Source of the DNA: an uncultured Bacteroidales bacterium
GTDB taxonomy: Bacteria; Bacteroidota; Bacteroidia; Bacteroidales; FEN-979
Assembly (NCBI GenBank): GCA_903877385.1
Contig: CAIRDP010000063.1
Location: forward strand, 124,001 to 188,000
Direction: 5' to 3'
Length of the DNA stretch: 64,000 bases
The translations under genes and the position numbers were made by a program. This document shows, in pieces, positions 8,290 through 34,930 of this stretch. Every line of letters starts with the position of its first letter. Position 1 is the first letter of the stretch. Below the pieces are notes generated by a model. That model was given only the letters and a program-made list of their open reading frames with translations. It did not search any database and was not told the origin of the DNA.

Positions 8290-8298
8290 GCTGACAGT

Positions 8299-8745: not shown

Positions 8746-8872
8746 AATTCAGGCAGCAAAGGTACGAAAGGATGGGCTAGGTATTATGTACAATGTACTA
8801 TGAACCATGTACAAATTCAGAAAAAGGTATTCTTCCCATTTGTAAATGGTACATGGTCCATTGTAAATCCTT

Positions 8873-11320
8873 TTAGATCTTCAGGCTGATCCCGAACAGG
8901 TAGTTAACTGGGGCCTGGGGAAAATACCCGTTGCTTTCATAATAGGATCCTGATTGAAGGTAGGGGTAAACCCAGGCATTGGACTCGTATTTTTCACTGA
9001 AAATATTGCTGATGGTCATTGAGAATGAAATCTCTTTCATCCATTCCGGGTGTACTGCAAAAGAAGCTCCAAGCCCATTGATAAAATAGTCGTGCAGGGA
9101 CCGCCCTTTGTTTGATGTGTTATCGATATATTGCATGCCCACATACCTGGAGTTCCATGAAACACTCAGGTTTTTGATGGGTTTATAGGTAAGTGTGCCT
9201 GCAAATACGATATCGGGGGAAAATGAGAGGACAGTTTTGCCGAGGCTGGTCGCTTGCTGTCCTTTGAAGTTCCAGGCCGAGTCATATTGATCGATGTACT
9301 GGGTAAAATCTTTGATCTTGTTCTGGCTGAAGGCAGCAGCCAGGTCAAGATGCAGCTGCTGTAACAAATCAATGCCGGCCGAAATTTCGATGCCCAGGCG
9401 GTAGGAGTGGGGTACATTGACCATAATGGCTTCCCCAACAGAATTGATCTCGCCTGTTAACACAAGCTGGTTGCTGTAATCCATGTAAAACAGGTTGGCA
9501 TTGGCGGTAAACCACTTGTACCTGGCGGTATATCCAAGCTCGTAATCGTACAGTCTTTCGGAAGCGGGCATGCGGTTTGTGTCGGCATCCTTGTAATTGT
9601 CCCGGCTTGGTTCCCGGTTGCCCACCGCGAATGAAAAGTAAGCCTGGTGGTGAGGGTTAAAAGCAAAGGATAAACCGAGTTTGGGATTGAAGAAATTAAA
9701 AATATGAGACTGGTCCAGGGTTCTCAGGTCTTCTATGGTACCGCTGAGTTTGTAGTTCACATAGCGATACTGAATGTCGGCAAACAAACTGAGTTTCTTC
9801 CACAGGGTATAATTGATCTTTAGGAAAATGTCGAAATCTTTTTTAATCCCTCGGCCGTCGTACCAGTTCCAGGAATTCGTGCTGGTGGATGCATACTGCG
9901 CCCAGATTACCTTCCCGAAGGAATCTCCCGAATACCGGCTCCAGGCTCCGCCTACGATAACATTAAGACGGTCATCGGGCTTGTAATTACTGGAGAATGT
10001 AAATCCGCAGAGATCATTGTCAAGCCATTTACGGTTGACCAGGTTTGTTGAATCAATGACTGCTCCTCCTATTATCACGTTGGGAAGCCCGTAGCCTGAA
10101 AAGAAAGCATTCTGTTCGAAACTTTCATAATACCCGTTCCCCTTGGTATAGTGGACTGCAAGGTTAATATCCCAGCCTTTCATAAGCCGCTGTGAGAAGA
10201 TGGCCTGGAAATGGGTTTGAACATAATTATCGGTCTCGTTGCTGTAATATTGTATATTCCCGTTCTGGTCGTAATACAGACCCATGGGGTTGAACCTGCG
10301 GTTTGTTTCCAGGGAATCCTTTGGCACTCCGCCCCAGGCCTGGTATGTTTTTTCGGTCCCCGAAAAAAGTATGATCCTCAGGGTTGTCCTGCTGCCATAA
10401 TACCCTCCCGAAAGGTACCAGGAGCGCAGATCCGAAAAAGCCCTGTCGATATAACCATCGGAATGAATATAGGAGAACCGCCCGTCGAAGCTGAGATGGT
10501 TGGCCAGAAGGCCTGTGCCGAACCTGAGGGTCGATTTGAATGTTTTGAACGACCCTGCCGAAACATCCAGTTCCCCGTAAGGATCGGGATTGAGTTTTGT
10601 TGTCTGTATGTTGATGGAAGCCCCAAAAGCACCGGCTCCGTTAGTGGAAGTTCCTACTCCTCTCTGGATCTGTATGTTGTCGGAAGAGGAAGCGATATCG
10701 GGGAGGTCAACAAACCATACTCCCTGGGATTCGGGATCATTCTGTGGAATCCCGTTGATTGTGACGTTGATCCTGGTGAGATCGGTACCCCGGATATTGA
10801 TGCCTGTATATCCTATGCCGGTTCCGGCGTCAGAAGTGACCACGGTGGATGGTGTATTCTGGACCAGGTAGGGCATATCCTTGCCCATGTTCTCCACCTG
10901 GATCTGCTTTGCCGTGATATCGGTAAATGCCATGGGATATTTTTCCTGCGCCCGGGTGGCTGTCACATTCACCTCTTCGCCCAGTATTGCCGCGGGTTCC
11001 ATCCCTATGCTGATATTGGTGTCGGTTTGCAGTTTCAACAGCTGCTTTATGGTTGCATACCCCATATATGAAACACGAAGGGTATATGTGGCTGCTTTGA
11101 TGTTTGAAATGGTAAAATTCCCATTTCCTCCGCTGACGGCATTTTTCCCGCTTTTTTCGAGGATGATATTCGCCCCTTCAAGGGACCTGCCGTCCTGTTT
11201 GTCAATGATCGTCCCGACCAGCCTTACCTGGGCATAATTTGTTGCGGCAAATAATAGAAATGCCGTGAATACGCACAGTAACCTGGCCGTGTTTTTTCTT
11301 TTGTTTTTTCTCGTCATCAT
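8873..11320 (-). CDS. TonB-dependent receptor, probably for thiamine or a precursor
   Basis: 815 residues. Signal peptide (about 1-30, ending TNYA), a CarboxypepD_reg-like beta-sandwich (31-115: RLVGTIIDKQDGRSLEGANI), a plug domain (about 120-235, with NIRGTDLTRINVTINGIPQN), then a 22-strand-type barrel ending in the aromatic-rich VNYLFGISLKI. It imports a ligand across the outer membrane using TonB energy. The substrate is suggested only by the TPP riboswitch directly upstream on the same strand, which puts the gene in the thiamine regulon. No pnuT or thiamine kinase gene follows; smpB is next. Confidence 0.9.
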   Translation of the reverse strand: MMTRKNKRKNTARLLCVFTAFLLFAATNYAQVRLVGTIIDKQDGRSLEGANIILEKSGKNAVSGGNGNFTISNIKAATYTLRVSYMGYATIKQLLKLQTDTNISIGMEPAAILGEEVNVTATRAQEKYPMAFTDITAKQIQVENMGKDMPYLVQNTPSTVVTSDAGTGIGYTGINIRGTDLTRINVTINGIPQNDPESQGVWFVDLPDIASSSDNIQIQRGVGTSTNGAGAFGASINIQTTKLNPDPYGELDVSAGSFKTFKSTLRFGTGLLANHLSFDGRFSYIHSDGYIDRAFSDLRSWYLSGGYYGSRTTLRIILFSGTEKTYQAWGGVPKDSLETNRRFNPMGLYYDQNGNIQYYSNETDNYVQTHFQAIFSQRLMKGWDINLAVHYTKGNGYYESFEQNAFFSGYGLPNVIIGGAVIDSTNLVNRKWLDNDLCGFTFSSNYKPDDRLNVIVGGAWSRYSGDSFGKVIWAQYASTSTNSWNWYDGRGIKKDFDIFLKINYTLWKKLSLFADIQYRYVNYKLSGTIEDLRTLDQSHIFNFFNPKLGLSFAFNPHHQAYFSFAVGNREPSRDNYKDADTNRMPASERLYDYELGYTARYKWFTANANLFYMDYSNQLVLTGEINSVGEAIMVNVPHSYRLGIEISAGIDLLQQLHLDLAAAFSQNKIKDFTQYIDQYDSAWNFKGQQATSLGKTVLSFSPDIVFAGTLTYKPIKNLSVSWNSRYVGMQYIDNTSNKGRSLHDYFINGLGASFAVHPEWMKEISFSMTISNIFSEKYESNAWVYPYLQSGSYYESNGYFPQAPVNYLFGISLKI

Positions 11321-11385
11321 AAGTTATACGTTTAAATGCTAAACTGATAACTTACAACAGAGGCATGCTTTAAAGTGATACTCTT

Positions 11386-11460
11386 GTCCCTACGCCGGCA
11401 TTATCCGGATCAGGTTCAGAGGGTATGATCTCAGCCCGTATTTTAAGGCACCCCTATTGG
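11386..11460 (-). promoter_or_regulatory. TPP riboswitch (THI element)
   Basis: Read on the minus strand, the conserved parts appear in order: GGGGTGCC, GGGCTGAGAT, ACCCTCTGAACCTGATCC, GGATAATGCCGGCGTAGGGA. This is the classic thi-box aptamer. It sits 66 bp upstream of the TonB receptor start. A TAnnTTTG box (minus strand TATCTTTG, 11471-11478) lies just upstream, so the aptamer would be almost at the 5' end of the transcript. Expected to switch the receptor off when thiamine pyrophosphate is abundant. Confidence 0.96.
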
Positions 11461-11470
11461 AAAGTTGAAA

Positions 11471-11478
11471 CAAAGATA
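11471..11478 (-). promoter_or_regulatory. -7 box for the TonB receptor/TPP riboswitch transcript
   Basis: Minus-strand TATCTTTG fits TAnnTTTG. Predicted transcription start is near 11464, a few nucleotides before the aptamer. No good TTG at 19-nt spacing was found. Confidence 0.55.
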
Positions 11479-11550
11479 AGGCATTTTGATGTACAATATA
11501 CCATGTATAATGCACCAATAATTTCGTTATTTTGCTAATTCGCTACTTTG

Positions 11551-11558
11551 TATATTTG
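11551..11558 (+). promoter_or_regulatory. -7 box of aroQ
   Basis: TATATTTG (TAnnTTTG) ends only 5 bp before the aroQ ATG, so the mRNA may be leaderless or nearly so. A TTTG at 11531-11534 could be the -33 element at non-ideal spacing. Confidence 0.45.
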
Positions 11559-11563
11559 CTGTT

Positions 11564-11986
11564 ATGAAAAAAATCCTCATTATCAACGGGCCTAACCTCA
11601 ACCTGCTTGGGAAGCGCGAAACAGCGGTGTATGGCGAAAAAAAGTTCGAAGACTATCTTAAATCGCTTAAAACCGTATTCCCTGGTACAGGAATCAGTTA
11701 CTTCCAGAGTAATATTGAAGGCGAAATTATCGATGCCTTGCAAAAAGCCGCAGGAAAATACACGGGCATTATTCTGAATGCAGGCGGATATACCCATACT
11801 TCGGTCGCGATAGGGGATACCGTGAGAGCGATCGACACTCCTGTGATCGAAGTGCATATTTCCAATGTGTTTTCCAGGGAAGAATTCAGGCATATATCGT
11901 ATATAGCCCCGGCGGCAAAAGGTGTGATAGCTGGTTTCGGCCTGGATTCCTACAGGCTGGCGATGGAAAGTCTTTTGTACGCTTAA
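11564..11986 (+). CDS. aroQ: 3-dehydroquinate dehydratase, type II
   Basis: 140 residues, usual length for the dodecameric type II enzyme. It converts 3-dehydroquinate to 3-dehydroshikimate in the shikimate pathway (cytoplasm). Motifs: IINGPNLNLLGKRE (start of the active-site loop), FQSNIEGEIIDAL, LNAGGYTHTSVAIGDTV, and VIEVHISNVFSREEFRH with the catalytic His (HISN). The last 14 or so codons are part of a 51-bp tandem duplication whose second copy lies after the stop codon. Confidence 0.97.
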   Translation: MKKILIINGPNLNLLGKRETAVYGEKKFEDYLKSLKTVFPGTGISYFQSNIEGEIIDALQKAAGKYTGIILNAGGYTHTSVAIGDTVRAIDTPVIEVHISNVFSREEFRHISYIAPAAKGVIAGFGLDSYRLAMESLLYA

Positions 11987-12045
11987 TTTTTATTGGATTC
12001 CTGCAGGCTGGCGATGGAAAGTCTGCCGTATACTTAATTTTTAAA
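11944..12045. repeat. 51-bp tandem duplication of the aroQ 3' end
   Basis: 11944-11994 and 11995-12045 are the same segment repeated with about nine differences (both begin GGATTCCT and contain CAGGCTGGCGATGGAAAGTC). Copy 1 encodes the aroQ C-terminus and stop. Copy 2 is downstream and contains, on the other strand, the stop codon of the glycosyltransferase (12034-12036). Confidence 0.9.
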
Positions 12046-13053
12046 CCGCGCAGGTTTCAGTTGTGAGAATTTCCTTTTGCGCAGAATGAAATAATCGAAT
12101 ACCAGGCTCCCTTTGTAAATGTTTTTTACCGAACCCTGTTTGATGGATACTCTTTTTTGCCTGGTTGTTGAAAGGGAACGGTAGAAACTGAAATGAGCCC
12201 TGGCAACAGCCCAGAAATCCTTGAAACCTGCCTGCACCAGGAATTTCATGGCTGCAATCCCGTCGAGCAGCAGTCTTACTGCAAACACCCTGATAAGCCA
12301 GGAATCGGGAAGGTTTTTATAAAGGAGGATGAAGTTATTCCTGAAATTAAGGTAGGTCTTTCTCCAGGAAATTTTCGGCAGAGTCCCCCCCCCGATATGG
12401 AAAACAGTGGAATCGGGACAATACATGATCTTGTATCCTGCATTGTTCAACCTCCAGCAAAAATCAATTTCTTCCATATGGGCGAAGAAGTCCTCATCAA
12501 ATCCGCCCATCTCATGATACAGCTTTGATCTCACAAATAAACAGGCTCCCGATGCCCAGAAGATCTCATGCAGATCGTCGTACTGTCCATGGTCTTCTTC
12601 GATCTGGAGGAACATTCTCCCCCTGCAGAAAGGATAACCGTATTTATCTATGAACCCCCCGGCTGCTCCTGCATATTCGAATTTCTTGGGTTCAAGATAG
12701 GAACGGATCTTAGGCTGGCAGGCTCCTATGGAAGGATCCTTTTCCATAATATCAATAACCGGCCTTATCCAGTTCTCGGTGACCTCGATATCGGAGTTCA
12801 GTAAAACATAATACTCGGCTTCGACCTGTTGCAACGCAAGGTTATATCCCCTGGCAAACCCGTCGTTTTTGGGGTTCTGTATGATCCGGATCTGGGGGAA
12901 ACTGGTCCTGAGGAAGTCGAGGGAGTCGTCGGTTGAGGCATTGTCAGCAACAATAACACCTGTGTCTGGTTCAATATGCTGAATCAGGGCCGGAAGGAAT
13001 TTTTCCAGGAATTTTTTCCCGTTCCAGTTAAGTATTACTACTGCGACTTGCAC
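12034..13053 (-). CDS. Glycosyltransferase family 2
   Basis: 339 residues. GT-A fold: VAVVILNWNGKKFLEKFLPAL at the N-terminus, VIVADNASTDDSLDFL nucleotide-sugar site, and YYVLLNSDIEVTENW with the acidic metal-binding region. It continues with WASGACLFVRSKLYHEMGGF and DEDFFAHMEEIDFCWRL (catalytic-base region) typical of rhamnosyl- or surface-polysaccharide-type GT2 enzymes. It probably adds a sugar to a cell-surface glycan in the cytoplasm. Its stop codon sits in the second copy of the aroQ-end duplication. Convergent with aroQ. Confidence 0.9.
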   Translation of the reverse strand: MQVAVVILNWNGKKFLEKFLPALIQHIEPDTGVIVADNASTDDSLDFLRTSFPQIRIIQNPKNDGFARGYNLALQQVEAEYYVLLNSDIEVTENWIRPVIDIMEKDPSIGACQPKIRSYLEPKKFEYAGAAGGFIDKYGYPFCRGRMFLQIEEDHGQYDDLHEIFWASGACLFVRSKLYHEMGGFDEDFFAHMEEIDFCWRLNNAGYKIMYCPDSTVFHIGGGTLPKISWRKTYLNFRNNFILLYKNLPDSWLIRVFAVRLLLDGIAAMKFLVQAGFKDFWAVARAHFSFYRSLSTTRQKRVSIKQGSVKNIYKGSLVFDYFILRKRKFSQLKPARFKN

Positions 13054-13144
13054 TTTTTTAAGAAAAATCAGGAGTTATTGAAGACTCAAAAGTAAGAATA
13101 AATCCTTTGCGGATTAAAGAAAAGACGGGCTGTAACGATTCCTG

Positions 13145-14623
13145 TCAGAGGTTAGTTGTGGGTAAGTCCCATGAATCTTCGGAGAAATCGCCCCAAACAT
13201 TGACCACCTGGGATTCACTGATGTCGATAGGTGAAGAAACCTTGTTCCTTAAAAATACCTTCCAGGTAGGTTCGTATTGTTCACCAATTGCGTCGGAATG
13301 CAGGAGGATGAAATCCGCAGTGACCATATCAGGGGAATAGAATACGAATTTTTTGTTTCTCTGGCTGTTGTTAAGCGTATAATACTGCCATATCTCGTAA
13401 GGATAGGTATTGGGTTCGGCGTAATGTGCATCCCTGGCGTTGGGAGGGCCGTATTGAAGGAATACACGTCCCCTGTCAGTTTCATATCCTTTCTTGATCT
13501 TGGTGGCGAAGTTTGCCTGGGTAATTTTAACCTGCATATTGTAACCCAGCCATGCTTTCTCAGGTTCTGTTGAACTTCTCTGGTACCAGAATACATAGAA
13601 ATATCTTTGCAGGGTGGGAAGATCAGATTTTTTTAGCTGGAAACGGATGAAATCCTTTTCATACCCTGTAGAAACCGGATACGTGCTGCGGATGAACTCC
13701 TTTAGGGAATCGGCATTGGTGATCTTTTCGGCAAATGTTCCCTTAATTTCGGTGGAAGCAATCTGAGTGAGTGAAAACGCGGCATTCGGATTAGTCCTCT
13801 GGAAGAACACCTTTTTAGATAAAATGACTTCATTGTTTGAATTCCTGGCTTCGATTACGAGATTGTAGTTGCCGGTGGCAAGGTCCCTGATATTGATATC
13901 GGCCAGCAGTACATTCACTGGTTTGGGGGTTTCTTTCCTGGACTTGGCGAATTCGTTAAGTTTCAGGTTGTTTTCAAAACATTCGATGTAATACGAAACA
14001 AGGAACATCTGGCCTTTAGGAATTACTTTATCAAGGCTGTACATTTCAGTGTAAAAGCCAAGTTTTGCCTCTGGCCCGGTGTAGAAATTATAGATGTTGG
14101 GAATGAGGTTGTAGCCGCTCTTCGACAGTTCGGTCGGTTTATCGGCCCTGGCATAGCTTTTGATCATCTCAACACCCGACATGGATGGTTTGTCGGCGGG
14201 AAAATCAATTCCGATAACCTGGGTGTAAGGCATGGCCTGGGCACTCTTGTTCTTGTCGGTAAGCTGTATCTCGAAGTTATAGGTCCCGTTGGCAACCTGG
14301 AACCTTTGCTGATCGATGAACTGAAAATTCAGATTGATTGTATCGGCGATCTCATTGCTGTTCAGCTCATATTTTTTATAGGCCTTGATGTCATTTTTAT
14401 CTTTAAATGTCATGAGGACGTTAACGGTGGCTTTGTATTTACCGTCATCCTGTTTGATCCATTTTACGCTGTTCCCTGCGATACTCAGATAGGTCTCAAC
14501 ATAGGGTCCTTCGGGTGAGTTGAACGTAGCGTAGGTGAGATATGCCCAGAGGTTTTTAGCCGAGACGGATGACCCAGACAGTATAAAAGCGGAAAGGATC
14601 AAAAAAAAAGAAGTTTTCTTCAT
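13145..14623 (-). CDS. GWxTD domain-containing exported protein
   Basis: 492 residues. I chose ATG 14623 over the upstream ATG at 14704 because it starts a clear signal peptide (KKTSFFLILSAFILSGSSVSA) and has AGGTAAT in front. The C-terminal third (about 335-490) has the GWxTD-domain pattern: KKGYETDRGRVFLQYGPP followed by YPYEIWQYY and FVFYSPD. Members are common in Bacteroidota and of unknown function; the N-terminal half looks like beta-rich envelope protein. Acts outside the cytoplasm. No operon partner: 91 bp upstream of the GT2 start, on the same strand. Confidence 0.85.
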   Translation of the reverse strand: MKKTSFFLILSAFILSGSSVSAKNLWAYLTYATFNSPEGPYVETYLSIAGNSVKWIKQDDGKYKATVNVLMTFKDKNDIKAYKKYELNSNEIADTINLNFQFIDQQRFQVANGTYNFEIQLTDKNKSAQAMPYTQVIGIDFPADKPSMSGVEMIKSYARADKPTELSKSGYNLIPNIYNFYTGPEAKLGFYTEMYSLDKVIPKGQMFLVSYYIECFENNLKLNEFAKSRKETPKPVNVLLADINIRDLATGNYNLVIEARNSNNEVILSKKVFFQRTNPNAAFSLTQIASTEIKGTFAEKITNADSLKEFIRSTYPVSTGYEKDFIRFQLKKSDLPTLQRYFYVFWYQRSSTEPEKAWLGYNMQVKITQANFATKIKKGYETDRGRVFLQYGPPNARDAHYAEPNTYPYEIWQYYTLNNSQRNKKFVFYSPDMVTADFILLHSDAIGEQYEPTWKVFLRNKVSSPIDISESQVVNVWGDFSEDSWDLPTTNL

Positions 14624-14787
14624 ATTACCTGGTTTATGAAAATGTAAACGCTTAAAAAGAATTTTTGTGATGTCAATCACAACTAACTTATGCAAATTTA
14701 CCAATTACCGGCTGGTTTTGCAAGAAAATTCGATGAATCCCGCAGAATGAAAGCCAAGCGGAGGTTGTCGCAATGTGTAAGCTGCTT

Positions 14788-18133: not shown

Positions 18134-18222
18134 GGAGAGATGCCAGAGCGGTCGAATGGGGCGGTCTCGAAAACCGTTGACCCTCGTAAGGGGGTCCCAG
18201 GGTTCGAATCCCTGTCTCTCCG
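18134..18222 (+). tRNA. tRNA-Ser (CGA), integration site of the element
   Basis: Class II tRNA: acceptor GGAGAGA/TCTCTCC, anticodon loop CTCGAAA (anticodon CGA), long variable arm with CCCTCGTAAGGGG, T-loop GGTTCGAATCC, discriminator G and no CCA. A -7 box TATTTTTG lies at 18111-18118. Its last 22 bases belong to the duplicated att core, so the integrated element keeps the gene intact. Confidence 0.96.
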
Positions 18223-18224
18223 CA
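18201..18224 (+). repeat. attL core (3' end of tRNA-Ser)
   Basis: 24 bp identical to 49067-49090: T-arm and acceptor end of tRNA-Ser(CGA) plus two bases. Flanking bases differ on both sides. Confidence 0.95.
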
Positions 18225-18482: not shown

Positions 18483-19733
18483 ATGAAAAATTCTTTGTCT
18501 ATTCTTTTTTACCTCAGGAGAAGCAAAGTCCCTGAAAATGAGAAGGCACCAATTTACATGAGGATTACAGTAAATGGCAGGAGGGTGGACCTGGCAACTC
18601 ATCAGTTTATTGAAGCAGAAAGGTGGGATTCCCAGCATGGATGCATCAAAGGAACAAAAGAGGATGCGAGGACCATCAATACCAGCCTTGATAATAAAAG
18701 GTCACATGTTCTTAAAATATTCACGCAGCTTGAAACAACAGGTAAAACCATCACGGCAGAAATCATTCGGAATCACTTTTTAGGGAAGATGATAAACCGT
18801 CACTCATTGGTGGAAGTATTCAAATTGTATAACAAGCAGCTTGCTGCTAAGGTCGGTCAGGGTTATGCAAAAGGGACTCTTACCAAGTATACAGCAACAT
18901 GTAACAAGGTAGAAGGTTTTATCCGGTTCCAGTTTAAAAGGTCTGATGTATTTCTTGATGAATTGGACTATCAGTTCATCACTAACTATGATCTTTACCT
19001 CAGGTCAGAGCTCAGTAATGTCCAGAACACCGTTTCAAAGTCGATTTCCTTTCTGAAAAAGATCATACATTATAGTATATATAATGGATGGTTGGATAAA
19101 GATCCTTTTACTTCTTTCCGTTGCCCGTATAAAGACCCAGAACGAGATTTCTTAACGGAAGATGAGTTGGATAAGATGCAAAACAAAGAGATTGAGATTA
19201 ACCGCCTTTCCATAGTTAGAGATATGTATGTTTTCTCTTGTTTCACCGGTTTGCCGTTTTCTGATATTGAAAAAATGACCCCTGGAGACATCTCAATAGG
19301 TATTGATGGTGGTAAATGGATAGTTTATAATCGTACCAAGACGGGAAATCGTGCTCCGATACCATTATTACCGATACCATTAGGTATTATAGAGAAGTAT
19401 AAGAATTACCAGGTGAATGTGAGTAAGGGAAGGCTCCTGCCGGTTTATTCCAACCAAAAGATAAATGCTTACCTGAAGGAATTAGCTGATATCTGCAAAA
19501 TTGATAAGGAGCTTACCTTTCATACTGCCCGTCATACGTTTGCTACGACGGTAACACTTACAAACGGTGTTCCTATTGAAACGGTGAGTAAGATGCTTGG
19601 CCATACTTCAATAAAGACAACACAGATATATAGTAAGGTGGTAGATCGTAAGGTCAGTGATGATATGAAGGTGTTAAAGGAACGTATGGCAAATAAACAG
19701 CCATCTAAGAGTTCTAAAGTTGTAGGTATGTAA
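18483..19733 (+). CDS. Tyrosine recombinase/integrase of the element
   Basis: 416 residues, usual for Bacteroidota integrases. An N-terminal Arm-DNA-binding domain (LRRSKVPENEKAPIYMRITV), a SAM-like core-binding domain (about 110-210), and a catalytic domain with HTARHTFA (H-x-x-R), LGHTSIKTTQIYSKV and nucleophile Tyr383. The usual first catalytic Arg (TGLR in many relatives) is Pro here (CFTGLPFSDIEKM); loss of that residue is also known for CTnDOT IntDOT. It should integrate the element into, and with help excise it from, the tRNA-Ser 3' end. Located next to attL. Confidence 0.95.
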   Translation: MKNSLSILFYLRRSKVPENEKAPIYMRITVNGRRVDLATHQFIEAERWDSQHGCIKGTKEDARTINTSLDNKRSHVLKIFTQLETTGKTITAEIIRNHFLGKMINRHSLVEVFKLYNKQLAAKVGQGYAKGTLTKYTATCNKVEGFIRFQFKRSDVFLDELDYQFITNYDLYLRSELSNVQNTVSKSISFLKKIIHYSIYNGWLDKDPFTSFRCPYKDPERDFLTEDELDKMQNKEIEINRLSIVRDMYVFSCFTGLPFSDIEKMTPGDISIGIDGGKWIVYNRTKTGNRAPIPLLPIPLGIIEKYKNYQVNVSKGRLLPVYSNQKINAYLKELADICKIDKELTFHTARHTFATTVTLTNGVPIETVSKMLGHTSIKTTQIYSKVVDRKVSDDMKVLKERMANKQPSKSSKVVGM

Positions 19734-19969: not shown

Positions 19970-20239
19970 ATGAATGTGGAATTAGTGACGAAAAATGATC
20001 TGGATGACTTAAAGCAAACCTTGATTAAGGAAATCCGGACGATTGCTGGGGTAAAACCCGAGATAAAGAAGTGGTTGAAGTCTGCTGATGTCCGGGAATT
20101 GCTTGGATGTTCTGCCGGGACGCTACAAAATTTACGAGTGAATGGAACTTTGGAGTATACGAAGATTGGTGGGACGATATATTATTCTGCTGAGTCTGTG
20201 GATCGCGTCTTTCAGGATAACAGAAAGAACGTCGCTTAG
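19970..20239 (+). CDS. Small MerR/excisionase-like HTH protein
   Basis: 89 residues: an N-terminal helical part, then a winged-helix HTH_17-type domain (KSADVRELLGCSAGTLQNLRVNGTLEYTKIGG). This is the typical Bacteroidota mobile-element helix-turn-helix protein. It may be the excision factor or a regulator; position between integrase and replication genes fits both. A TAAATTTG box at 19895-19902 is a possible promoter. Confidence 0.85.
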   Translation: MNVELVTKNDLDDLKQTLIKEIRTIAGVKPEIKKWLKSADVRELLGCSAGTLQNLRVNGTLEYTKIGGTIYYSAESVDRVFQDNRKNVA

Positions 20240-20273: not shown

Positions 20274-21638
20274 ATGAAACAGTACATTCCAGAAAGTCTG
20301 GATATCGATGAACTATTATCTGAAAAGCCGCCGGCATTTAAGTATTATCGGGATAATTTTATATATATCCTGAATCTTATTACTGAAATCCCATCACGTA
20401 ATAAAGATTTGCTGGATGCAAATGGATGGGTTCCAATACATGCCCATACACTGCAATCGAGGATAAGGGATTATGACAAGTACCTTGATTACCTGATCGA
20501 GAACAAAATTCTGGAAACCGATAACCAGTATCTTCCTGGGGAAAAGTCCAAAGAGTATCGCTTCACGAAAGAGCATAGAGTAGTCAATAAAGGAGTTGAA
20601 ATCGAAAAATATACTCTAATCAAGAGCATTCTTTGCAACGTACATCATCGGGCAGATTCCGAAAAAAAATATCCTTACCTGGCCAAGTGGTTCAATCCTG
20701 ATCTTAATATCGATTATAGCTCTGCAACCGATTATCTCTATCAAGAATATGAGATGAATATCATGCTGGAGGATGAGAATCCGGATGGTAAGTATAATGC
20801 CTCCATGTTGAATGCCGAAAAATTTAAAGAGCATGATTTTTACTTTCATGTTGACGGCACGGTAAACCGGCTGCACACCAATCTGACGAACTCGAAAAGT
20901 GGATTGCGGAACTTTATCACCTATGGAGGGGCCGGTCTTGTATCGGTTGATATAAAAAATTCACAACCGTGGATTAGTACCCTTCTTTTGGACTCTCGTT
21001 TTTACGAAAAACCGAAAATAGGCTCCTTTCTCTTCAATATTAAGGATATTTACCCTAAGTACACTCAGGATATCTTCCTCACCTCAGAGGAATTGGATTC
21101 TATCATTATGATAGTAAAAAATGAGCTATCCCTTGATGGTAAAGGGAAAGGTGATATCAGGTCCTATACAGATAAAGTCTTGGATGGGTCCCTGTATGAA
21201 TACATCGCTGAAGAGATAAAAAGTACACATGGTTATATTATATCCAACCGGAAAGAAATAAAGAAGATGATCTTTACAGTGTTCTTCTCAGCTAATCAGT
21301 TTTTCCACCAGCGAGAAGCCTGGCCAAAGGAAATGTTCAGTGATCTTTATCCAACTGTTTATGATGTCTTCAAGTCAATCAAAAGGCATGGGCAGGCGAA
21401 CCTTGCCATCCTACTTCAACGGATGGAATCAAAGCTCATGTTGGATTATGTCGCAAAGAGGATTGGAAAAGAGTGTCCGGGTATGCCCATGTTTACAATA
21501 CATGATTCCATCGTATGCCCATTTGGAGAGCAGGGATATGTTGCCAGGGTCATTCAGGAAGAAGCATTAAAGTGCATAGGATCAACTCCATCGGTATCAG
21601 TTGAATCCTGGCATCAAGAAAAGAGTAAAATAGCGTAG
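20274..21638 (+). CDS. Putative family-A-polymerase-like palm protein (replication)
   Basis: 454 residues; I do not recognise the family by name. Three motifs fit the palm/fingers signature shared by Pol I and T7-type polymerases. Motif A: VSVDIKNSQPWI with Asp226. Motif B: RKEIKKMIFTVFF (R326-x3-K330-x3-F334-x3-F338, as R-x3-K-x3-F-x3-Y in Pol I). Motif C: TIHDSIV with His410-Asp411-Ser412, as HDE in Pol I and HDS in T7 RNA polymerase. The N-terminal 200 residues are unassigned. Twenty bp after it lies a proofreading-type exonuclease gene, which supports a DNA-synthesis role. Alternative: a diverged primase or inactive relative. Confidence 0.6.
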   Translation: MKQYIPESLDIDELLSEKPPAFKYYRDNFIYILNLITEIPSRNKDLLDANGWVPIHAHTLQSRIRDYDKYLDYLIENKILETDNQYLPGEKSKEYRFTKEHRVVNKGVEIEKYTLIKSILCNVHHRADSEKKYPYLAKWFNPDLNIDYSSATDYLYQEYEMNIMLEDENPDGKYNASMLNAEKFKEHDFYFHVDGTVNRLHTNLTNSKSGLRNFITYGGAGLVSVDIKNSQPWISTLLLDSRFYEKPKIGSFLFNIKDIYPKYTQDIFLTSEELDSIIMIVKNELSLDGKGKGDIRSYTDKVLDGSLYEYIAEEIKSTHGYIISNRKEIKKMIFTVFFSANQFFHQREAWPKEMFSDLYPTVYDVFKSIKRHGQANLAILLQRMESKLMLDYVAKRIGKECPGMPMFTIHDSIVCPFGEQGYVARVIQEEALKCIGSTPSVSVESWHQEKSKIA

Positions 21639-21658: not shown

Positions 21659-22426
21659 ATGGACTTATCAAATCTAAATTTAAAACGCCCCCTGGTATTC
21701 TTCGATACAGAGACAACAGGGGTAAACATTGTCCAGGATCGTATAATTGAACTTTGCGCCATTAAAATCTTTCTCGACAAGTCAAGAGAGACCTTTATTC
21801 AACGGTTCAATCCCGGTATACCTATACCCCCAGAAGCAACAACTGTACATGGTATCACGGATGAGATGGTAGCAAATGAACCCTCGTTCTCAACCAAGGT
21901 AAGTGAAATAGTTGAGTTCTTTTCGGGATGTGACCTGGCAGGATATAACTTAATCAGGTTTGACATCCCATTACTTGTTGAAGAACTTCTTAGAAATGGA
22001 GTTAAGCAGATCCCATTTGAGGGTGCCAAATTCATTGACTGCATGGCAATCTGGCGAGTAATGGAACCTAGGACTCTTTCTGATGCGGTAAAATACTATA
22101 CTGGAGAGGTCCATGAAGAAGCTCATGCAGCGCAAGGTGATGCTGAAGCGACAATATCCGTCCTTGCTGGTCAACTTGCAAAATATCCTGATTTATCTCC
22201 CGATCCAGATACTTTGCATGATTTGGCGCTCCAGGGTAACTCAGTAATTGATTATGCTGGTAAATTTTCCAGAGATGATGATGGCGATATCATTTTTACT
22301 TTTGGTAAAAATAGTGGTCAGAAAGTTAAAGATAACCTGGGGATGTTGGATTGGATGCTTTCCAGGGATTTTCCAGCACATACTAAATATATTGCCAGGA
22401 AAATATTGAATGGAGAGTTAAGCTAG
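21659..22426 (+). CDS. DEDDh 3'-5' exonuclease (DnaQ-like)
   Basis: 255 residues. ExoI PLVFFDTETTG (Asp, Glu), ExoII GYNLIRFDIPLLVEEL, ExoIII HAAQGDAEATISVL (His, Asp) give the DEDDh set. The C-terminus (FGKNSGQKVKDNLGMLDWML) is the small extra domain seen in Bacteroidota exonucleases of this type. Probably proofreading for the upstream polymerase-like protein (inference from the 20-bp gap); a general repair exonuclease is the alternative. Confidence 0.92.
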   Translation: MDLSNLNLKRPLVFFDTETTGVNIVQDRIIELCAIKIFLDKSRETFIQRFNPGIPIPPEATTVHGITDEMVANEPSFSTKVSEIVEFFSGCDLAGYNLIRFDIPLLVEELLRNGVKQIPFEGAKFIDCMAIWRVMEPRTLSDAVKYYTGEVHEEAHAAQGDAEATISVLAGQLAKYPDLSPDPDTLHDLALQGNSVIDYAGKFSRDDDGDIIFTFGKNSGQKVKDNLGMLDWMLSRDFPAHTKYIARKILNGELS

Positions 22427-22849: not shown

Positions 22850-24724
22850 ATGGTTAAGAAAGGGATATTAAACCAGCTAATTCAAACTCATGACCTGATA
22901 AGTCTTGAGCAGCATTTGATTTTCGCCTACTTGACTAACAACAAAATAAATTTCAATAAAAGCCCAATTCTGACAAGCTATTTTAAAGGTTTTGAACAAA
23001 ACCCTCAACTTTACTTTGAAACTTCTTCTTTAAGTATTTGTAATATCAAGGAACTTGAAAATCATTTGGAGTTAATAATTCCAGTTGGCGATAGGAAATT
23101 CAACGGAGCATTTTTTACCCCTGACTATATCATTGATTTTATCATCAATGAAATTCAACCCAAAAAAAACGACACCAACCTTGATCCAAGTTGTGGGTGT
23201 GGTGCCTTTTTAGTAGGCTTGACAGACTATTACAAACGGAACTTCAATAAACCAATTCGAAAAATTGTAAAGGAAAATATTTTCGGTTCAGATATCCTAG
23301 ACTACAATATACACAGAACAAAACTTATTTTGACAATTTATGCATTGCAAAACGGTGAACAGTTACTGGACGCTGATTTCAACTTGTATCATCAAGACAG
23401 TTTAAAAGCAAATTGGAAAAGTAGTTTTGACAATATCGTAGGAAATCCACCTTATGTAAAGTTTCAAGACCTTACAGACAGCAACCGTGACTATTTAGCC
23501 AAACACTGGACAACAGTAGAAGGCGGAACATTCAATCTCTACTTTGCATTTTTCGAACTGGGATTCAAGTTGCTGAAAACAAATGGGAAACTTGGCTACA
23601 TCACACCGAACAACTATTTCACATCTTTATCAGGGGAGTCATTACGAAAATATTTTCAGCACCAAAAGTGTGTACGACGAATCATTGACTTCAGCCACAA
23701 AAAAGTTTTTGATGCACAGACATATACAGCGATTACTTTTTTAAACAAACAACATAACGAAGCTATCACATACGACAGAATTAGTGAACAGCAAACACCT
23801 GAAACATTTTTAACAAATGCAAATGGTTCACTGAACTACGTGGAAAATTTGAATGTCAAAAAGTGGAGACTACTAAAAACAGACGAACAAAAAAACATCA
23901 AAATAATTGAAACGATTGGCATTCCAATCGGCAAACTGTTTGATATTTGTGTCGGCATAGCAACCTTGAAAGACGAAATATTTTTTATTGACGGGAAGAA
24001 TATGAAAAAAGGTTACTACTTCAAGATCACAGATCACGGAACTTTTGAAATAGAACCAGAAATAGTGAAACCTGTCTATAAAATTTCCGATTTTAAAACA
24101 CAAGAAGATTCAGAGCAAAATACACGAAAAATAATTTGTCCCTACAATATCAAAAATGGAATTGCTACCGCAATTCCTGAAAACGATTTCAAAAAGAAAT
24201 TTCCGAAATGCTATGCTTATTTTCTTTCGGTGAAAGAAAATCTTATAGCCAGAGACAAAGGCAAAGTAAAATATCAACCTTTCTTTGTCTGGGGGAGGAC
24301 ACAGGGTCTTACAAGAACAGGTAAGAAAATTTTAAACCCAACTTTCAGTCAGCATCCAAGGTTTTTAATAGTCGAGGAAGAAAATGGTTTTTTTACAAAT
24401 GGATACGGACTTTTTTTTCATGACCAAGAGAGCAATGGAATGTTCAATGATTTAATCAATCCAATAACGAAAATTGAAAACATTGATGTTGTTCAGAAAA
24501 TCTTGAACTCTTACTTAATGGACTATTACGTAAGTAAGACGAGTGTGGCGATTGAAGGCGGTTATCCCTGTTATCAAAAAAATTTCATTGAAAAATTTAC
24601 TATTCCCATTTTGACAGAAACCGAAATTGAAATCATTAGAAATTTAAATGACCCGTTAGAGATTGATGAATTTCTGATTGAAAAGTATCAGATAAATGTA
24701 TTGGCAGGGAATCTTGTTGAATAA
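22850..24724 (+). CDS. Type II N6-adenine DNA methyltransferase (Eco57I/TaqI-like)
   Basis: 624 residues. SAM-binding motif I NLDPSCGCGAFLVGLTDYY (about 102-120), catalytic motif IV DNIVGNPPYVKFQDL (NPPY, target adenine), and a C-terminal target-recognition half (about 350-610). It protects host DNA from the paired endonucleases. It is A/T-rich compared with neighbours and convergent with the endonuclease genes, overlapping the first by 37 bp. Too short for a BREX PglX and without a fused nuclease, so a solitary methylase subunit of a type II system is most likely. Confidence 0.92.
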   Translation: MVKKGILNQLIQTHDLISLEQHLIFAYLTNNKINFNKSPILTSYFKGFEQNPQLYFETSSLSICNIKELENHLELIIPVGDRKFNGAFFTPDYIIDFIINEIQPKKNDTNLDPSCGCGAFLVGLTDYYKRNFNKPIRKIVKENIFGSDILDYNIHRTKLILTIYALQNGEQLLDADFNLYHQDSLKANWKSSFDNIVGNPPYVKFQDLTDSNRDYLAKHWTTVEGGTFNLYFAFFELGFKLLKTNGKLGYITPNNYFTSLSGESLRKYFQHQKCVRRIIDFSHKKVFDAQTYTAITFLNKQHNEAITYDRISEQQTPETFLTNANGSLNYVENLNVKKWRLLKTDEQKNIKIIETIGIPIGKLFDICVGIATLKDEIFFIDGKNMKKGYYFKITDHGTFEIEPEIVKPVYKISDFKTQEDSEQNTRKIICPYNIKNGIATAIPENDFKKKFPKCYAYFLSVKENLIARDKGKVKYQPFFVWGRTQGLTRTGKKILNPTFSQHPRFLIVEEENGFFTNGYGLFFHDQESNGMFNDLINPITKIENIDVVQKILNSYLMDYYVSKTSVAIEGGYPCYQKNFIEKFTIPILTETEIEIIRNLNDPLEIDEFLIEKYQINVLAGNLVE

Positions 24725-25590
24725 ACATGTAAAATGTCTGTTACAAAATTTACGAAATCCAGACCTACCATTGAAACGGTTGATGTTGGATGCAAAAATC
24801 CATCTTGTTTTAGCTCTGCACTTGTATTATATATTTTGGGAACAGCTCTATCAAAATCCACGATAAGCAAACAACACCTTTCATATTTATACTTATCATC
24901 ATTTTGATCTGCTCTCCCATTTATTGCTTGAAACGCCTCAATATATTTGCCTACATCAATTGTTCTAAAAGCTACATTTCTAAGTTTTGAAGCGTCATCA
25001 TCATATTCTTTAGTAGGAATTAAATACACCTCACCTAAAACCATGTTTGGGCATCTCAAATGTAAATTCAATGATTCAGCAAAGGTTCTTTCATACAATG
25101 TATCAAAATTTTTTCCAATGCTACTTAGCTGACTACGTACATTCACACTAAGAATTGACTCAGTAAAAACAGTCCCAAACACATCATTGTAACCTTTCAT
25201 CATTGAATTCAAATTCAAAATTTGAGGTGCAATATGATTGTTGTTTGTGATTATTGAAATGTCCTGCTTTTTAGTTTTAAGAAAGCCTGCTATTTGCAGT
25301 TCCTGATCAGCAAGATTTCGTTGTCGATTTTGTTGCTTTACAGGCGGATTTATTACTCGTTGGAGATACTTTTTAGATGGGTTGATTAAACTTGGATGAA
25401 TATTCCTATTGAAAAAAATCGTTTTTACTGCATTATGCACACATTTTATCAGAGTGCTGGTTCTAATGGTGCTTGCTTTGGTTCCATTTGTAATTGCAGT
25501 TTCATAATTCAGTTTAATCTGATTTACTGCATCCTGGATGCTGATTTGAGGAAAGGGTATCCCACTATGATTGTTTATTATATTTGTCAT
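24688..25590 (-). CDS. Type II restriction endonuclease, paralog A
   Basis: 300 residues. Clearly homologous along most of its length to the next gene upstream: shared blocks RSQLSSIGKNFDTLYERTF, CPNMVLGEVYLIPTKEYD, EAFQAINGRAD and KYERCCLLIVDF. I infer an endonuclease because it sits with a methylase, its duplicate and a controller gene; GEVYLIPTKEY could hold the E-x-K part of a PD-(D/E)xK site, but I cannot assign the family or the recognition site. The 3' end overlaps the convergent methylase by 37 bp. Ten bp from paralog B, so co-transcribed. Confidence 0.75.
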   Translation of the reverse strand: MTNIINNHSGIPFPQISIQDAVNQIKLNYETAITNGTKASTIRTSTLIKCVHNAVKTIFFNRNIHPSLINPSKKYLQRVINPPVKQQNRQRNLADQELQIAGFLKTKKQDISIITNNNHIAPQILNLNSMMKGYNDVFGTVFTESILSVNVRSQLSSIGKNFDTLYERTFAESLNLHLRCPNMVLGEVYLIPTKEYDDDASKLRNVAFRTIDVGKYIEAFQAINGRADQNDDKYKYERCCLLIVDFDRAVPKIYNTSAELKQDGFLHPTSTVSMVGLDFVNFVTDILHVYSTRFPANTFI

Positions 25591-25600
25591 TTGATAAAAA

Positions 25601-26416
25601 CTAATTTCCGAACCTTGATTCGTAGGTTGAAATAATTGAAGGTGTAAAGGAATCCCAATTTAATTCAACAATATTTGCTTGCGAATTGGTAGGCATCAAA
25701 CCATCTGCAATCAGCTCTTCGTTTGTACTGTATATCTTTGCAGGTGTTTGACCAAAATCAACAATGAGTAAACAAACTTTTTCATACTTATAATCTTGTT
25801 TTGTAAAATCTGCTCTGCCGTTTATTGCCTGGAATGACTTGATGTATTTTTGAACTGCACCGACTCTATCAATGAATTCAATGTTCTTGTTTTTCATTGC
25901 AACTGGATTGTACTCTTTAACGGCGATCATATACACTTCACCTAAAACCATTTTTTGACATCTTACATGGAGGTTTTGTGCTTCTGCAATCGTCCGTTCA
26001 TAAAGTGTATCAAAGTTTTTCGCCAAACTGCTCATTTGACTTCTTATATTTATTGATAAAACTCTTTCTGTGTATTCTTTTCCGTAGTGGTCAGCTTCTT
26101 CTTGGAGCAGTCCTTCTTGCATAATTTCATGCACTGGTGTCCTTCCTTTTGGAGCAACACAAACATCCTGATGTTTGTGTTTTAGAAATCCTGCAAGTTT
26201 CATTTCGGGAAAACTGTAACCAAGAGGTGGATAAACACGATGGCGTTCAACACCACTATTTATCAAAGCAGATTTTACAGCTTCGTGTATACAGTTTATC
26301 GGCTTAGAAGATCTTATCATTGCTTCTTTGGCTTCAATTCCACCTTGCAGAATTGAACCCTCAATTAGAGCTTTGAAATTATTTACTGCCTCTTGAATAG
26401 TTATCAAATTCGGCAT
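25601..26416 (-). CDS. Type II restriction endonuclease, paralog B
   Basis: 271 residues, homologous to paralog A: RSQMSSLAKNFDTLYERTI, MVLGEVYMIAVKEYN, SFQAINGRADF, KYEKVCLLIVDF are matched. Its N-terminus (ITIQEAVNNFKALIEG) also matches paralog A (ISIQDAVNQIKLNYE). The start overlaps the end of the controller gene by 38 bp, the typical C-R arrangement. Two endonuclease subunits with one methylase could form a heterodimer, or one may be a spare with other specificity. Confidence 0.78.
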   Translation of the reverse strand: MPNLITIQEAVNNFKALIEGSILQGGIEAKEAMIRSSKPINCIHEAVKSALINSGVERHRVYPPLGYSFPEMKLAGFLKHKHQDVCVAPKGRTPVHEIMQEGLLQEEADHYGKEYTERVLSINIRSQMSSLAKNFDTLYERTIAEAQNLHVRCQKMVLGEVYMIAVKEYNPVAMKNKNIEFIDRVGAVQKYIKSFQAINGRADFTKQDYKYEKVCLLIVDFGQTPAKIYSTNEELIADGLMPTNSQANIVELNWDSFTPSIISTYESRFGN

Positions 26417-28476: not shown

Positions 28477-29649
28477 TTAATGGAATACTTTAGCCCTGCT
28501 TTTGCGGGCGTAAGCAAGGTTTCTATTCATCACTACATATCTCACTGCATCAATCCCATGGTTAAACCTGTCCACCGGAACATTTAAAGCATTCCCGGCA
28601 GCATCCTCCTTCCATTTGTAGTTTTTAAGCTCCCTGATCAGGTTCACTGACCGTTTAGTTACCTTGAACTTTTGTCTTTTCATGATATCAATTCCGGTGA
28701 TGATACTATCCTGGCCCTTGAAAGTAGGTTTGATATTGAATCCCTCCAGCCTGATTTCATAAATGCATTTGGGTTGGTTGTCGGCAATGATCTCATCGGC
28801 TTTTGTAATACCAATCTGGTTCATCCATTTCCCTATATCCTGATTGGTTAGGCCCCGGGAATAGATCATCTCATCCAAATATAGGTCTCCTCCGGAATAT
28901 CCAACCTTTATCAGGGCAGTAGGATCATTTGAGAAGCCAAAATCAAGGCCGTAGGAAGTCCATTTGCATTCCAACGGGTATTCATCCACTACTTCCCAGT
29001 TTGTGAATACCAGGCCTTTTATTTGGCCTATTTCGCCTAATCCGTATATCCTCCAATAATTCTGGTCCACGGATTTCAGGTTTTCAATTTCCCTGACCAT
29101 TTCTTCCGGGAGGAATTTTAAATTGTCAAGGTATGTTGAATGGATAAAGGTGCAGTCCTGACGGGGGATGAGTATGTCATAAATCCAGTGTTCATCCATG
29201 GAAGGGTTGAAGTCCAGGTATATCTGCTTTTCAGTTCTAAGGGAAAGCTGAATCCAGTCTTCAAGGTTGAGTTCGTTTGCTTCGTTGATAAATAGATAGG
29301 TTCTTTTTGCACCACGTTTTTTCTGTGGCTGGTCCAGGCTCATGAACTCAAAGAGGTTTCCGTTTAACAGGTAGGTGTTCTCAGTTTTGTTGTGATTCCT
29401 TTCATCGTACAGGTCATTTGCTTTCAGAATCTCGAAGAAATCCCTCATTGCGGAGGCTTTTAATGCCGGCATGGTCTTCCTGACGATGGAAAATACCATG
29501 TCTGTGCCTTCAAAGGCTTTGACTAAGGCTAACAGTTGAAGGATTGAAAATGTCTTGCCTGACCTGCTTCCTCCCTGGTTGACGATGATTTTTGTCCTGG
29601 CATTGTAGTTTTTCTCAAATACCACTGACACTTTTACATTTTTCTCCAT
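28477..29649 (-). CDS. Terminase large subunit
   Basis: 390 residues. Walker A GGSRSGKTFSILQLL (about 26-40), Walker B YLFINEANELNLEDW, and a C-terminal nuclease with YGLDFGFSNDPTALIKV and IIADNQPKCIYEI acidic residues: the Terminase_3/PBSX-type packaging motor. It cuts and pumps element DNA into the procapsid. Unusually it is transcribed opposite to the capsid genes. With the two small genes at 29689 and 30029 it forms a minus-strand unit. Confidence 0.95.
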   Translation of the reverse strand: MEKNVKVSVVFEKNYNARTKIIVNQGGSRSGKTFSILQLLALVKAFEGTDMVFSIVRKTMPALKASAMRDFFEILKANDLYDERNHNKTENTYLLNGNLFEFMSLDQPQKKRGAKRTYLFINEANELNLEDWIQLSLRTEKQIYLDFNPSMDEHWIYDILIPRQDCTFIHSTYLDNLKFLPEEMVREIENLKSVDQNYWRIYGLGEIGQIKGLVFTNWEVVDEYPLECKWTSYGLDFGFSNDPTALIKVGYSGGDLYLDEMIYSRGLTNQDIGKWMNQIGITKADEIIADNQPKCIYEIRLEGFNIKPTFKGQDSIITGIDIMKRQKFKVTKRSVNLIRELKNYKWKEDAAGNALNVPVDRFNHGIDAVRYVVMNRNLAYARKSRAKVFH

Positions 29650-29688
29650 TGGCCGGTGAAAATTTCAGTTGAAATGTATACCAGGGTA

Positions 29689-29979
29689 TTAGTTCCCCTT
29701 GATGACTTCAAAGGTTATCTTGGTGATCTTGTCTTCCTGTGGTGCAATATCGACATTCATCCTCTGGAGCTTTGGCCTGATAAATTCCTGCAGGCTGGCC
29801 CATAGTTCAACTCTTTCCTTGGACCTCATTTTCTCAATGTCTTCTTCCAGGGTTTCATCGAGGAGGGAGAGGACTTTTTCCACTCTTTCTTTCTGCTCGC
29901 TGGTAATTTTATTCCTTGCACCTTTGGGTTTGCCTTGATGTCCTTTGGCATATTGCCCTTTTTCGTTCCTGACTTCCAT
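29689..29979 (-). CDS. Small phage protein upstream of terminase (DUF5681-like)
   Basis: 96 residues, basic N-terminus (MEVRNEKGQYAKGHQGKPKG, pattern seen in proteins next to terminase genes), then a helical coiled-coil region with many Glu and Lys. It lies 39 bp upstream of TerL in the same direction. Possible TerS partner or DNA-binding packaging factor; I cannot say more. Confidence 0.7.
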   Translation of the reverse strand: MEVRNEKGQYAKGHQGKPKGARNKITSEQKERVEKVLSLLDETLEEDIEKMRSKERVELWASLQEFIRPKLQRMNVDIAPQEDKITKITFEVIKGN

Positions 29980-30028
29980 ATTTCCTAATTTGACCTTATT
30001 TTAAGGTGTTATTGTTGCTTTTTGATGA

Positions 30029-30289
30029 TTAATGTTCCCTGTATACCAGCTTCTCAATACTGCTTATGCTGATTCCGTATTCTTCGCTTAGTTCGAGTTT
30101 GATGTCGGTATAGGTTCTCCCTTCTTTGGTAAATGTCTTTCCCTGTTTTGCGTATTCAAAGTAAAGTTCTTTGACCAGCCATTTCTTTGCCGCATTCGTT
30201 GGAAGTATCCCTTTTCTGATGAGATTTTCAACATCCATCCCAAATTTTTCCCGGAGGTCTTGGATGATTTTTAATGTGTCTTCGCTCAT
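30029..30289 (-). CDS. TerS-like HTH protein
   Basis: 86 residues. C-terminal helix-turn-helix (YTDIKLELSEEYGISISSIE) after a helical N-terminus; fits small terminase subunits, which recognise the pac site. First gene of the minus-strand packaging unit, 49 bp before the next. A TAAATTTG box (minus strand, 30304-30311) with a TTG 20 nt upstream (30332-30334) provides a good promoter. Alternative: a transcription regulator of the divergent capsid operon. Confidence 0.65.
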   Translation of the reverse strand: MSEDTLKIIQDLREKFGMDVENLIRKGILPTNAAKKWLVKELYFEYAKQGKTFTKEGRTYTDIKLELSEEYGISISSIEKLVYREH

Positions 30290-30303
30290 TTAGCCATTTT
30301 TTA

Positions 30304-30395
30304 CAAATTTAATAATATTCCAATGTATATACAACTGTAATATAGTGTTTTTGCCAATATTTACTAAAGTATTACTTTAAGTAATATTAGTTTTG
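30304..30395. promoter_or_regulatory. Divergent promoters and palindromic operator of the packaging and capsid units
   Basis: Minus-strand TTG-N20-TAAATTTG (30304-30334) faces the TerS unit. Plus-strand TAGTTTTG (30388-30395) faces the capsid unit. Between them is a perfect inverted repeat ATTACTT-T-AAGTAAT (30371-30385) touching the plus-strand -7 region, a likely operator. Confidence 0.6.
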
Positions 30396-30416
30396 TATCT
30401 GTTATAAAATCTGACT

Positions 30417-31376
30417 ATGAAATCTTTCTCGACTCCTGCTGTTGCATTCTCTTTCTCTCAAATAGATGAGGGTGCCGGTATTCTGAAAAAGGTTGTTGTT
30501 GCACAGGCTGGAAAGGTCAAATCTTACTTTGAACAAATTGATTCTGTAACTCTTTCCCAGATTGCCCAGTTGGGTAATTCAAAGGAGGCAGGAGTAAAGG
30601 CACGTTTTGGGCATCCTAATATGTGCAGCTCTTCCTTTGGAACATATATCGGCAGGTTCAAGAATTTCCATGTTGAGGGTGAAAAGGTTTTTGGAGATCT
30701 TCATCTTGATGATGTTTGTAAGGAATCTCCTTCGGGAAATCTCTTTGATTATATCGTTAAAATGGCAAAGAATAACCCGGATATGTTCGGGGCATCTATT
30801 GCTTTTGTACCTGGTGAGCCTTCATTGACTAATGAAGAGTATCCAGCAACCCGTATTGATGATCTTCTGGCTACTGATCTTGTTGATGATCCTGCCGCTA
30901 CTAATTCGTTGTTTGCTGTTGATTCATTCTCTTACCAGGCTACAAGGTTTTTAGATGAGAATCCGTCTATTGCCTGGCTTATTGCCAAAAAGCCTGATAC
31001 TATTATCGAGTTTATGCTCAAATATTATTCAAATAACAATACCATGAAAAAGGAATTGTTCCAAAAGCTAAGGAATCTGTTCAATCCTCTGCCAGAAGGG
31101 GTTAATGATGAAACGCTTAAAAATTATAATCAGGCTGTTGAACAGTTGGAGGCTGATTATCAGAAACAAATTTCAACTCTGGAAGCAGAACAACAGAAGC
31201 AGCTTTCAGCTCTCAGGGATGAGATTGCTTCTCTTCAGGATCAGCTTAAAGCTCGGCCTACTGTTGTTGAGGGTGTTGATCCAAAGGTTAAGGTTTCACC
31301 ATCCGAGGAAAGTTTTGGGAAGCAGCTTTTAAAAGAAATGCCCGCTCATTTGAAGGATAAAATCAAAAAGTCTTGA
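30417..31376 (+). CDS. Putative prohead protease fused to scaffold
   Basis: 319 residues. The N-terminal 180 residues resemble phage capsid maturation proteins: QLGNSKEAGVKARFGHPNMC, FGTYIGRFKNFHVEGEKVFG and FGASIAFVPGE fit the prohead-protease-like fold. The C-terminal part (about 200-300) is a coiled coil rich in Gln and Glu (EQLEADYQKQISTLEAEQQKQL), as in scaffolding domains. The gene stands directly before the capsid gene. Catalytic residues cannot be assigned with certainty. Confidence 0.65.
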   Translation: MKSFSTPAVAFSFSQIDEGAGILKKVVVAQAGKVKSYFEQIDSVTLSQIAQLGNSKEAGVKARFGHPNMCSSSFGTYIGRFKNFHVEGEKVFGDLHLDDVCKESPSGNLFDYIVKMAKNNPDMFGASIAFVPGEPSLTNEEYPATRIDDLLATDLVDDPAATNSLFAVDSFSYQATRFLDENPSIAWLIAKKPDTIIEFMLKYYSNNNTMKKELFQKLRNLFNPLPEGVNDETLKNYNQAVEQLEADYQKQISTLEAEQQKQLSALRDEIASLQDQLKARPTVVEGVDPKVKVSPSEESFGKQLLKEMPAHLKDKIKKS

Positions 31377-31404
31377 TCAATTGTAAAACGTAAATTTTTG
31401 TGCC

Positions 31405-32757: not shown

Positions 32758-32781
32758 TTGATTGGCTAAAAATATGCTTCA

Positions 32782-34053: not shown

Positions 34054-34069
34054 TTTTTTGATATCAGTT

Positions 34070-34549: not shown

Positions 34550-34572
34550 ATCGTAATTCAAAATCAAATATT

Positions 34573-34920: not shown

Positions 34921-34930
34921 ACTTTAAATT

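Follow-up and report, generated by a model that had tools for sequence, protein, structure and literature searches.

A compact family-A DNA polymerase with a predicted winged helix in integrated elements of Bacteroidota

Results and Discussion

A compact polymerase of family A

The gene at 20274-21638 of the window (the whole 64,000-nucleotide stretch of DNA analyzed here, from an uncultured Bacteroidales bacterium) encodes a protein of 454 amino acids which, in our judgement, almost certainly has the fold of the family-A polymerases and belongs to that family. It very probably makes DNA rather than RNA, and we consider it probable that this compact enzyme, with its predicted winged helix, serves as the own copying or replication-start enzyme of the element that carries it. 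The computations show directly the fold, the register of the motifs and how well the catalytic residues are conserved. Together with its relatives the protein forms a compact, unnamed and previously unlabelled subfamily of the family-A DNA polymerases, marked by a predicted winged helix; our literature search found no description of it in the papers covered. The subfamily is not categorically new, since some database entries already name structural neighbours DNA polymerase I. The gene and its parts are as follows.

20274-21638, plus strand: compact family-A DNA polymerase (ORF of 454 aa; AlphaFold2 model; Foldseek and VIA-align; 61-member family)
20274-20585, plus strand: predicted N-terminal winged-helix domain, residues 1-104 (separate AlphaFold2 model; VIA-align)
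20868-20909, plus strand: RLHTNLTNSKSGLR, residues 199-212, counterpart of the Pol I "TGRLSS ... iR.aF" region (conservation; profile matches)
20949-20969, plus strand: motif A, D226-IKNSQP, with the catalytic Asp and Gln231 at the steric-gate position (conservation; hhalign register with Pol I DYSQIE)
21249-21287, plus strand: motif B, R326-x3-K330-x3-F334-x3-F338 (conservation; register of Pol I and T7 DNA polymerase in HMM alignments)
21417-21431, plus strand: Q382-x2-E385-S386, counterpart of the Pol I "QGTaAD" helix preceding motif C (conservation; hhalign register)
21501-21509, plus strand: motif C, H410-D411-S412 (conservation in 61 relatives)

An AlphaFold2 model built from a 27-sequence alignment reached pLDDT 80 and pTM 0.72. 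Fold comparison had been set beforehand as a test of a family-A-like reading proposed in an earlier note, with a predicted fold lacking a palm as one possible refutation. A palm is present in the model: D226 ends strand 222-227, and D411 lies in the turn of a palm-like hairpin (407-409/412-416), so that this refutation fails. Foldseek returned 60 PDB matches at E<=1e-3, of which the best 50 were all family-A polymerases; M. smegmatis Pol1 was matched at E 2.5e-5. The best 50 VIA-align entries were family-A DNA polymerases too (Z 14.3-16.7, residues ~117-449), with Pol theta at Z 16.7 (258 residues aligned, rmsd 3.4) and Taq, Klenow, Bst and T7 DNA polymerase at Z 14-16. Near whole-length matches, some of them labelled DNA polymerase, were found in a viral structure library. 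The architecture is probably a winged helix (1-104) joined by a short linker to a polymerase core (~120-446).

Sequence libraries were far less informative. The window polymerase has no match in Pfam (no family at E<=1), NCBIfam or PADLOC, and the cut-off of Pfam DNA_pol_A (PF00476) was reached neither by this protein nor by any of 12 relatives. Among PHROGs it weakly matches one unnamed family (phrog_4756, E 0.0034), while one of the 12 relatives matches a PHROG named DNA polymerase I (E 0.002). PDB sequence searches with the single protein and with family profiles gave nothing significant, the best being DNA polymerase I 7r0k at E 1.4; the GRlHTN stretch has a sub-threshold profile match to this Pol I chain and a profile match to the host Pol I. 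Direct comparison of the family profile with a Bacteroidota Pol I profile (hhalign) gave E 3e-5 and 72.9% probability, with motif A, motif B, the Gln helix and motif C all in register and motif A ungapped. Predicted fold and profile comparison thus both return family-A DNA polymerases, in agreement with the earlier reading.

Motifs A, B and C lie in order at the residues that the earlier note had assigned to them (D226-IKNSQP, R326-x3-K330-x3-F334-x3-F338 and H410-D411-S412). Conservation was counted across 61 aligned, non-identical relatives. D411, K330, E385 and R199 are kept in all 61 and D226 in 60; Q382, H410 and R212 are each kept in 58, and Ser412 in 57. At motif B, position 326 is R or K in 58 sequences, while F or Y occupies position 334 in 50 and position 338 in 59, followed mostly by G or S. 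The invariant or near-invariant set comprises R199, R212, D226, Q231, P232, Y308, K330, P360, Q382, E385, H410 and D411; motif A is partly lost in three distant relatives. The palm-like spacing of the motifs, also part of the earlier reading, is indeed uncommon by chance, as among 50,000 shuffled versions of the protein only 3 had the motifs in order at similar distances. Conservation across relatives is the stronger evidence of the two.

Comparison with known polymerases

Bacterial Pol I/Klenow, Taq, T7 DNA polymerase and Pol theta share the polymerase fold with the window enzyme over residues ~117-449, and family-A polymerases have the motif A Asp, the R-x3-K-x3-F/Y of motif B, the Gln helix and the His-Asp of motif C in the same order and register. 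In contrast to these enzymes, the window polymerase has a predicted winged helix, a Gln at the steric gate and HDS instead of HDE, lacks a fused exonuclease or 5' nuclease domain, and is undetected by Pfam DNA_pol_A. The Thermus phage Tt72/phiYS40 polymerase is likewise a divergent phage family-A enzyme with Ser replacing the Glu of motif C, but it is 703 aa long, has a fused 3'-5' exonuclease and keeps the steric-gate Glu389 (PMC9324360). Closer in length are two BFVD entries that match the window polymerase structurally over their whole length at 20-23% sequence identity, A0A516L5C2 (409 aa, E 4.7e-23) and A0A8D9FR19 (403 aa, E 5.3e-17), the latter named "putative DNA polymerase I". A third compact phage polymerase in BFVD, the "DNA polymerase" of Rheinheimera phage Barba31A (435 aa), is of similar length as well, with 11% identity, and may represent a sister group. 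We found no biochemistry for these three proteins.

The N-terminal domain

Modelled separately with AlphaFold2, residues 1-104 gave pLDDT 81 and the order H-E-H-H-E-E, and are likely to be a winged helix. The best VIA-align matches were N-terminal domains of plasmid initiators (4pql, Z 7.4; 4pt7, 6.8; 5kbj, 6.5), followed lower in the list by ORC and pPS10 RepA, all scores being below the tool's guide of Z 8 and Foldseek E values above 0.05. RepA_N-type plasmid initiators, to which this match is weak, begin with a winged-helix domain such as is predicted here but have no polymerase domain. The model suggests an initiator function; because the match stays under Z 8, origin recognition is put forward here as a suggestion. 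Neither iterons nor clear origin repeats were found near the polymerase gene. We regard origin binding by the polymerase as possible, somewhat short of probable.

The element in the window

A 24-bp sequence at the end of a tRNA-Ser gene recurs exactly at 49067-49090, and we therefore delimit an element of ~30.9 kb that holds the polymerase. The following features were assigned.

18201-18224, plus strand: attL, 24-bp repeat GGTTCGAATCCCTGTCTCTCCGCA at the 3' end of tRNA-Ser(CGA) (tRNA at 18134-18223)
18483-19733, plus strand: tyrosine integrase, 416 aa (Phage_integrase, Phage_int_SAM_5, Arm-DNA-bind_5)
19970-20239, plus strand: HTH_17/excisionase-like protein, 89 aa (HTH_17 E 2.3e-9; phrog_66 excisionase E 7.5e-6)
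21659-22426, plus strand: DnaQ-like (DEDDh) 3'-5' exonuclease, 255 aa (Pfam RNase_T E 1.9e-27; phrog_192 E 1.2e-47)
22850-24724, plus strand: type II DNA methyltransferase cargo (PADLOC MTase_II E 1.6e-132)
24688-26416, minus strand: two paralogous type II restriction-enzyme-like genes, 24688-25590 and 25601-26416 (PADLOC REase_II E 4e-64 and 6e-81)
28477-29649, minus strand: terminase large subunit (phrog_5653 E 1.7e-33)
29689-29979: terminase small-subunit-like ORF (phrog_8771 E 1.2e-5)
32782-34053, plus strand: portal protein (phrog_11226 E 9.2e-13)
36640-37152, plus strand: endolysin (phrog_315 E 5.4e-32)
49067-49090, plus strand: attR, second exact copy of the 24-bp repeat

The exonuclease gene noted earlier as following the polymerase does start 20 bp downstream, at 21659, and phrog_192 is a family of DNA polymerase exonuclease subunits. 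The pairing is limited to the window and its closest relative (L059), and we set aside the idea of an obligate partner for this reason. The exonuclease may be a proofreading partner acting in trans.

The tandem restriction-enzyme-like paralogues stand behind one methyltransferase and an XRE regulator. The region 28477-37152 has terminase, portal, candidate capsid and endolysin genes and no recognised tail gene; this packaging and head region may belong to a decayed prophage or to a satellite that forms capsids.

Distribution of relatives

Counting the window's own genome, relatives were detected in 17 of 395 genomes sampled across Bacteroidota (~4%) and in 6 of 199 kin genomes. Using tblastn, we also found them on one Hymenobacter plasmid and in huge phages, represented by six records of 595-735 kb of which two are apparently one genome; a match to gp033 of Lactococcus phage KSY1 (E 2) was too weak and was set aside. 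A scan of viral contigs with the single protein as query returned nothing, and an alignment-based scan of IMG/VR yielded 35 loci with relatives. Most huge-phage sequences fall in one clade of a FastTree phylogeny (support 1.0), with LR756511 placed elsewhere. Four of the huge phages also encode family-B polymerases and a fifth (LR756511) a DnaE, so these phages have a further replication polymerase besides the compact enzyme. On the Hymenobacter plasmid, a replication initiator of its own and a ParA are annotated. We thus do not propose the compact polymerase as the sole replication gene as a general rule, given the initiator of this plasmid and the other polymerases of the huge phages. In the 595-kb phage LR756511 a second compact PolA-like gene, this one detectable by Pfam, lies directly downstream of the relative (L013, 7155-8441).

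Apart from the window copy, 15 relatives have a tyrosine integrase nearby (cluster c4), and the succession of integrase, small HTH protein and polymerase is seen repeatedly. Repeat-bounded elements could be delimited around five relatives: L001 (5.6 kb, in a Weeksellaceae strain), L060 (6.5 kb, with flanking repeats of just 16 bp), L062 (6.5 kb), L085 (10.8 kb) and L102 (16.3 kb). Integrase and polymerase are the sole ORFs above 350 aa in L001, L060 and L062, and with only two such ORFs these three smallest elements can hardly accommodate a replicative helicase or a primase-helicase. Elements with relatives also carry other restriction-modification genes.

PICI-like satellites are small integrated elements mobilised by a helper phage, with a packaging-redirecting or terminase gene. 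PICI-type phage satellites resemble these elements in being small and tRNA-integrated and in having an integrase and an excisionase-like gene. The L062 element (8266-14781, 6.5 kb) is bounded by 70-bp repeats and encodes an integrase, an excisionase-like HTH protein, a resolvase-like nuclease and the polymerase, as well as a weak small-terminase-like ORF (DUF5681; phrog_8771 E 0.009). On this gene content it is possibly a phage satellite.

Proposed role and alternatives

A role in replication of the element is, in our judgement, fairly probable. It is supported by the integrase near 15 relatives, the att-bounded elements of 5.6-6.5 kb and the initiator-like predicted winged helix. The polymerase would extend a primer on the DNA of the excised element, by the usual two-metal mechanism through D226 and D411, and the winged helix would recruit it to element DNA, perhaps to an origin. 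It would act alongside host helicase, primase and Pol III, and proofreading, where needed, would be provided in trans, here by the adjacent DnaQ-like exonuclease. The subfamily is a marker of very small tRNA-integrated elements, a class for whose replication there is otherwise no explanation, and its members, present in ~4% of the sampled Bacteroidota genomes and in phages of 595-735 kb, are unrecognised by Pfam and NCBIfam.

A steric-gate Glu in motif A is usual in family A and is not a condition of the fold; T7 RNA polymerase has HDS as its motif C. The HDS of the window enzyme had been taken in the earlier note as a hint of T7 RNA polymerase, and a single-subunit T7-like RNA polymerase, or a primase-like RNA-making enzyme, might transcribe the element or prime its replication. 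In 58 of the 61 relatives Gln231 stands where Pol I has its ribose-gate Glu (E710 in E. coli; PMC13228545; PMC9324360), a change that could relax sugar discrimination; the tiny elements have no other recognisable primase, and one relative has a weak match to the RNA polymerase family phrog_414 (E 0.12). The T7 hint is not supported: T7 RNA polymerase is absent among the Foldseek and VIA-align matches listed, which are DNA polymerases, and while the profile comparison favours Pol I, hhalign against the single T7 RNA polymerase sequence gave E 0.32 and a probability of 0.2%. T7 RNA polymerase is also about twice as long (883 aa). Nor is HDS a sign of RNA synthesis, because the active family-A DNA polymerase of phage Tt72 also has Ser at the motif C Glu position, its S616A variant retaining 76% activity (PMC9324360). 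We consider an RNA-making enzyme quite unlikely. Compact and with unusual active-site residues, the DNA polymerase that we favour is a candidate for ribonucleotide use and self-priming.

An accessory polymerase for repair or gap filling, with a Pol I-like role and no part in starting or driving element replication, would fit the huge phages, where relatives coexist with family-B or DnaE polymerases. The window's host also retains a normal full-length Pol I of its own, which counts in favour of an accessory enzyme. Integrated elements of 5.6-6.5 kb would hardly carry a private repair polymerase among their two largest genes, and the predicted winged helix fused to the polymerase also argues against this explanation, which we regard as unlikely. 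The restriction-modification genes near the polymerase, and those of other elements with relatives, could alternatively point to defence, the polymerase acting against phages with the neighbouring exonuclease and these genes; yet the polymerase has no PADLOC match, the exonuclease is not conserved beside it, and phages themselves, including the largest known, carry it, making such a function highly improbable. Returning to element replication, one could imagine a bolder form, a self-contained initiator-polymerase whose winged helix would find the origin and whose Gln ribose gate would permit a start on ribonucleotides, captured also by the largest known phages. We think this rather unlikely; if true, a single protein would take the place of the initiator, the source of primers and the first polymerase in the minimal integrative elements of this phylum, the Bacteroidota.

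Other observations

The window's own genome has a second, distant copy of the polymerase (718 aa; G000:C23; L058, 10753-12909) in another region, with an HTH gene and a cytosine-methyltransferase-like gene nearby. Within the window, at 37672-45825, a fluoride riboswitch (RF01734) is followed by CrcB, DUF190, enolase and a dynamin-like GTPase, and then by Na+/H+ exchanger, UspA, HAD, PAP2 and phosphoglycerate-mutase-like genes. This cluster is fluoride-response cargo within the att-bounded, prophage-like element. A TPP riboswitch was found on the minus strand at 11369-11465.
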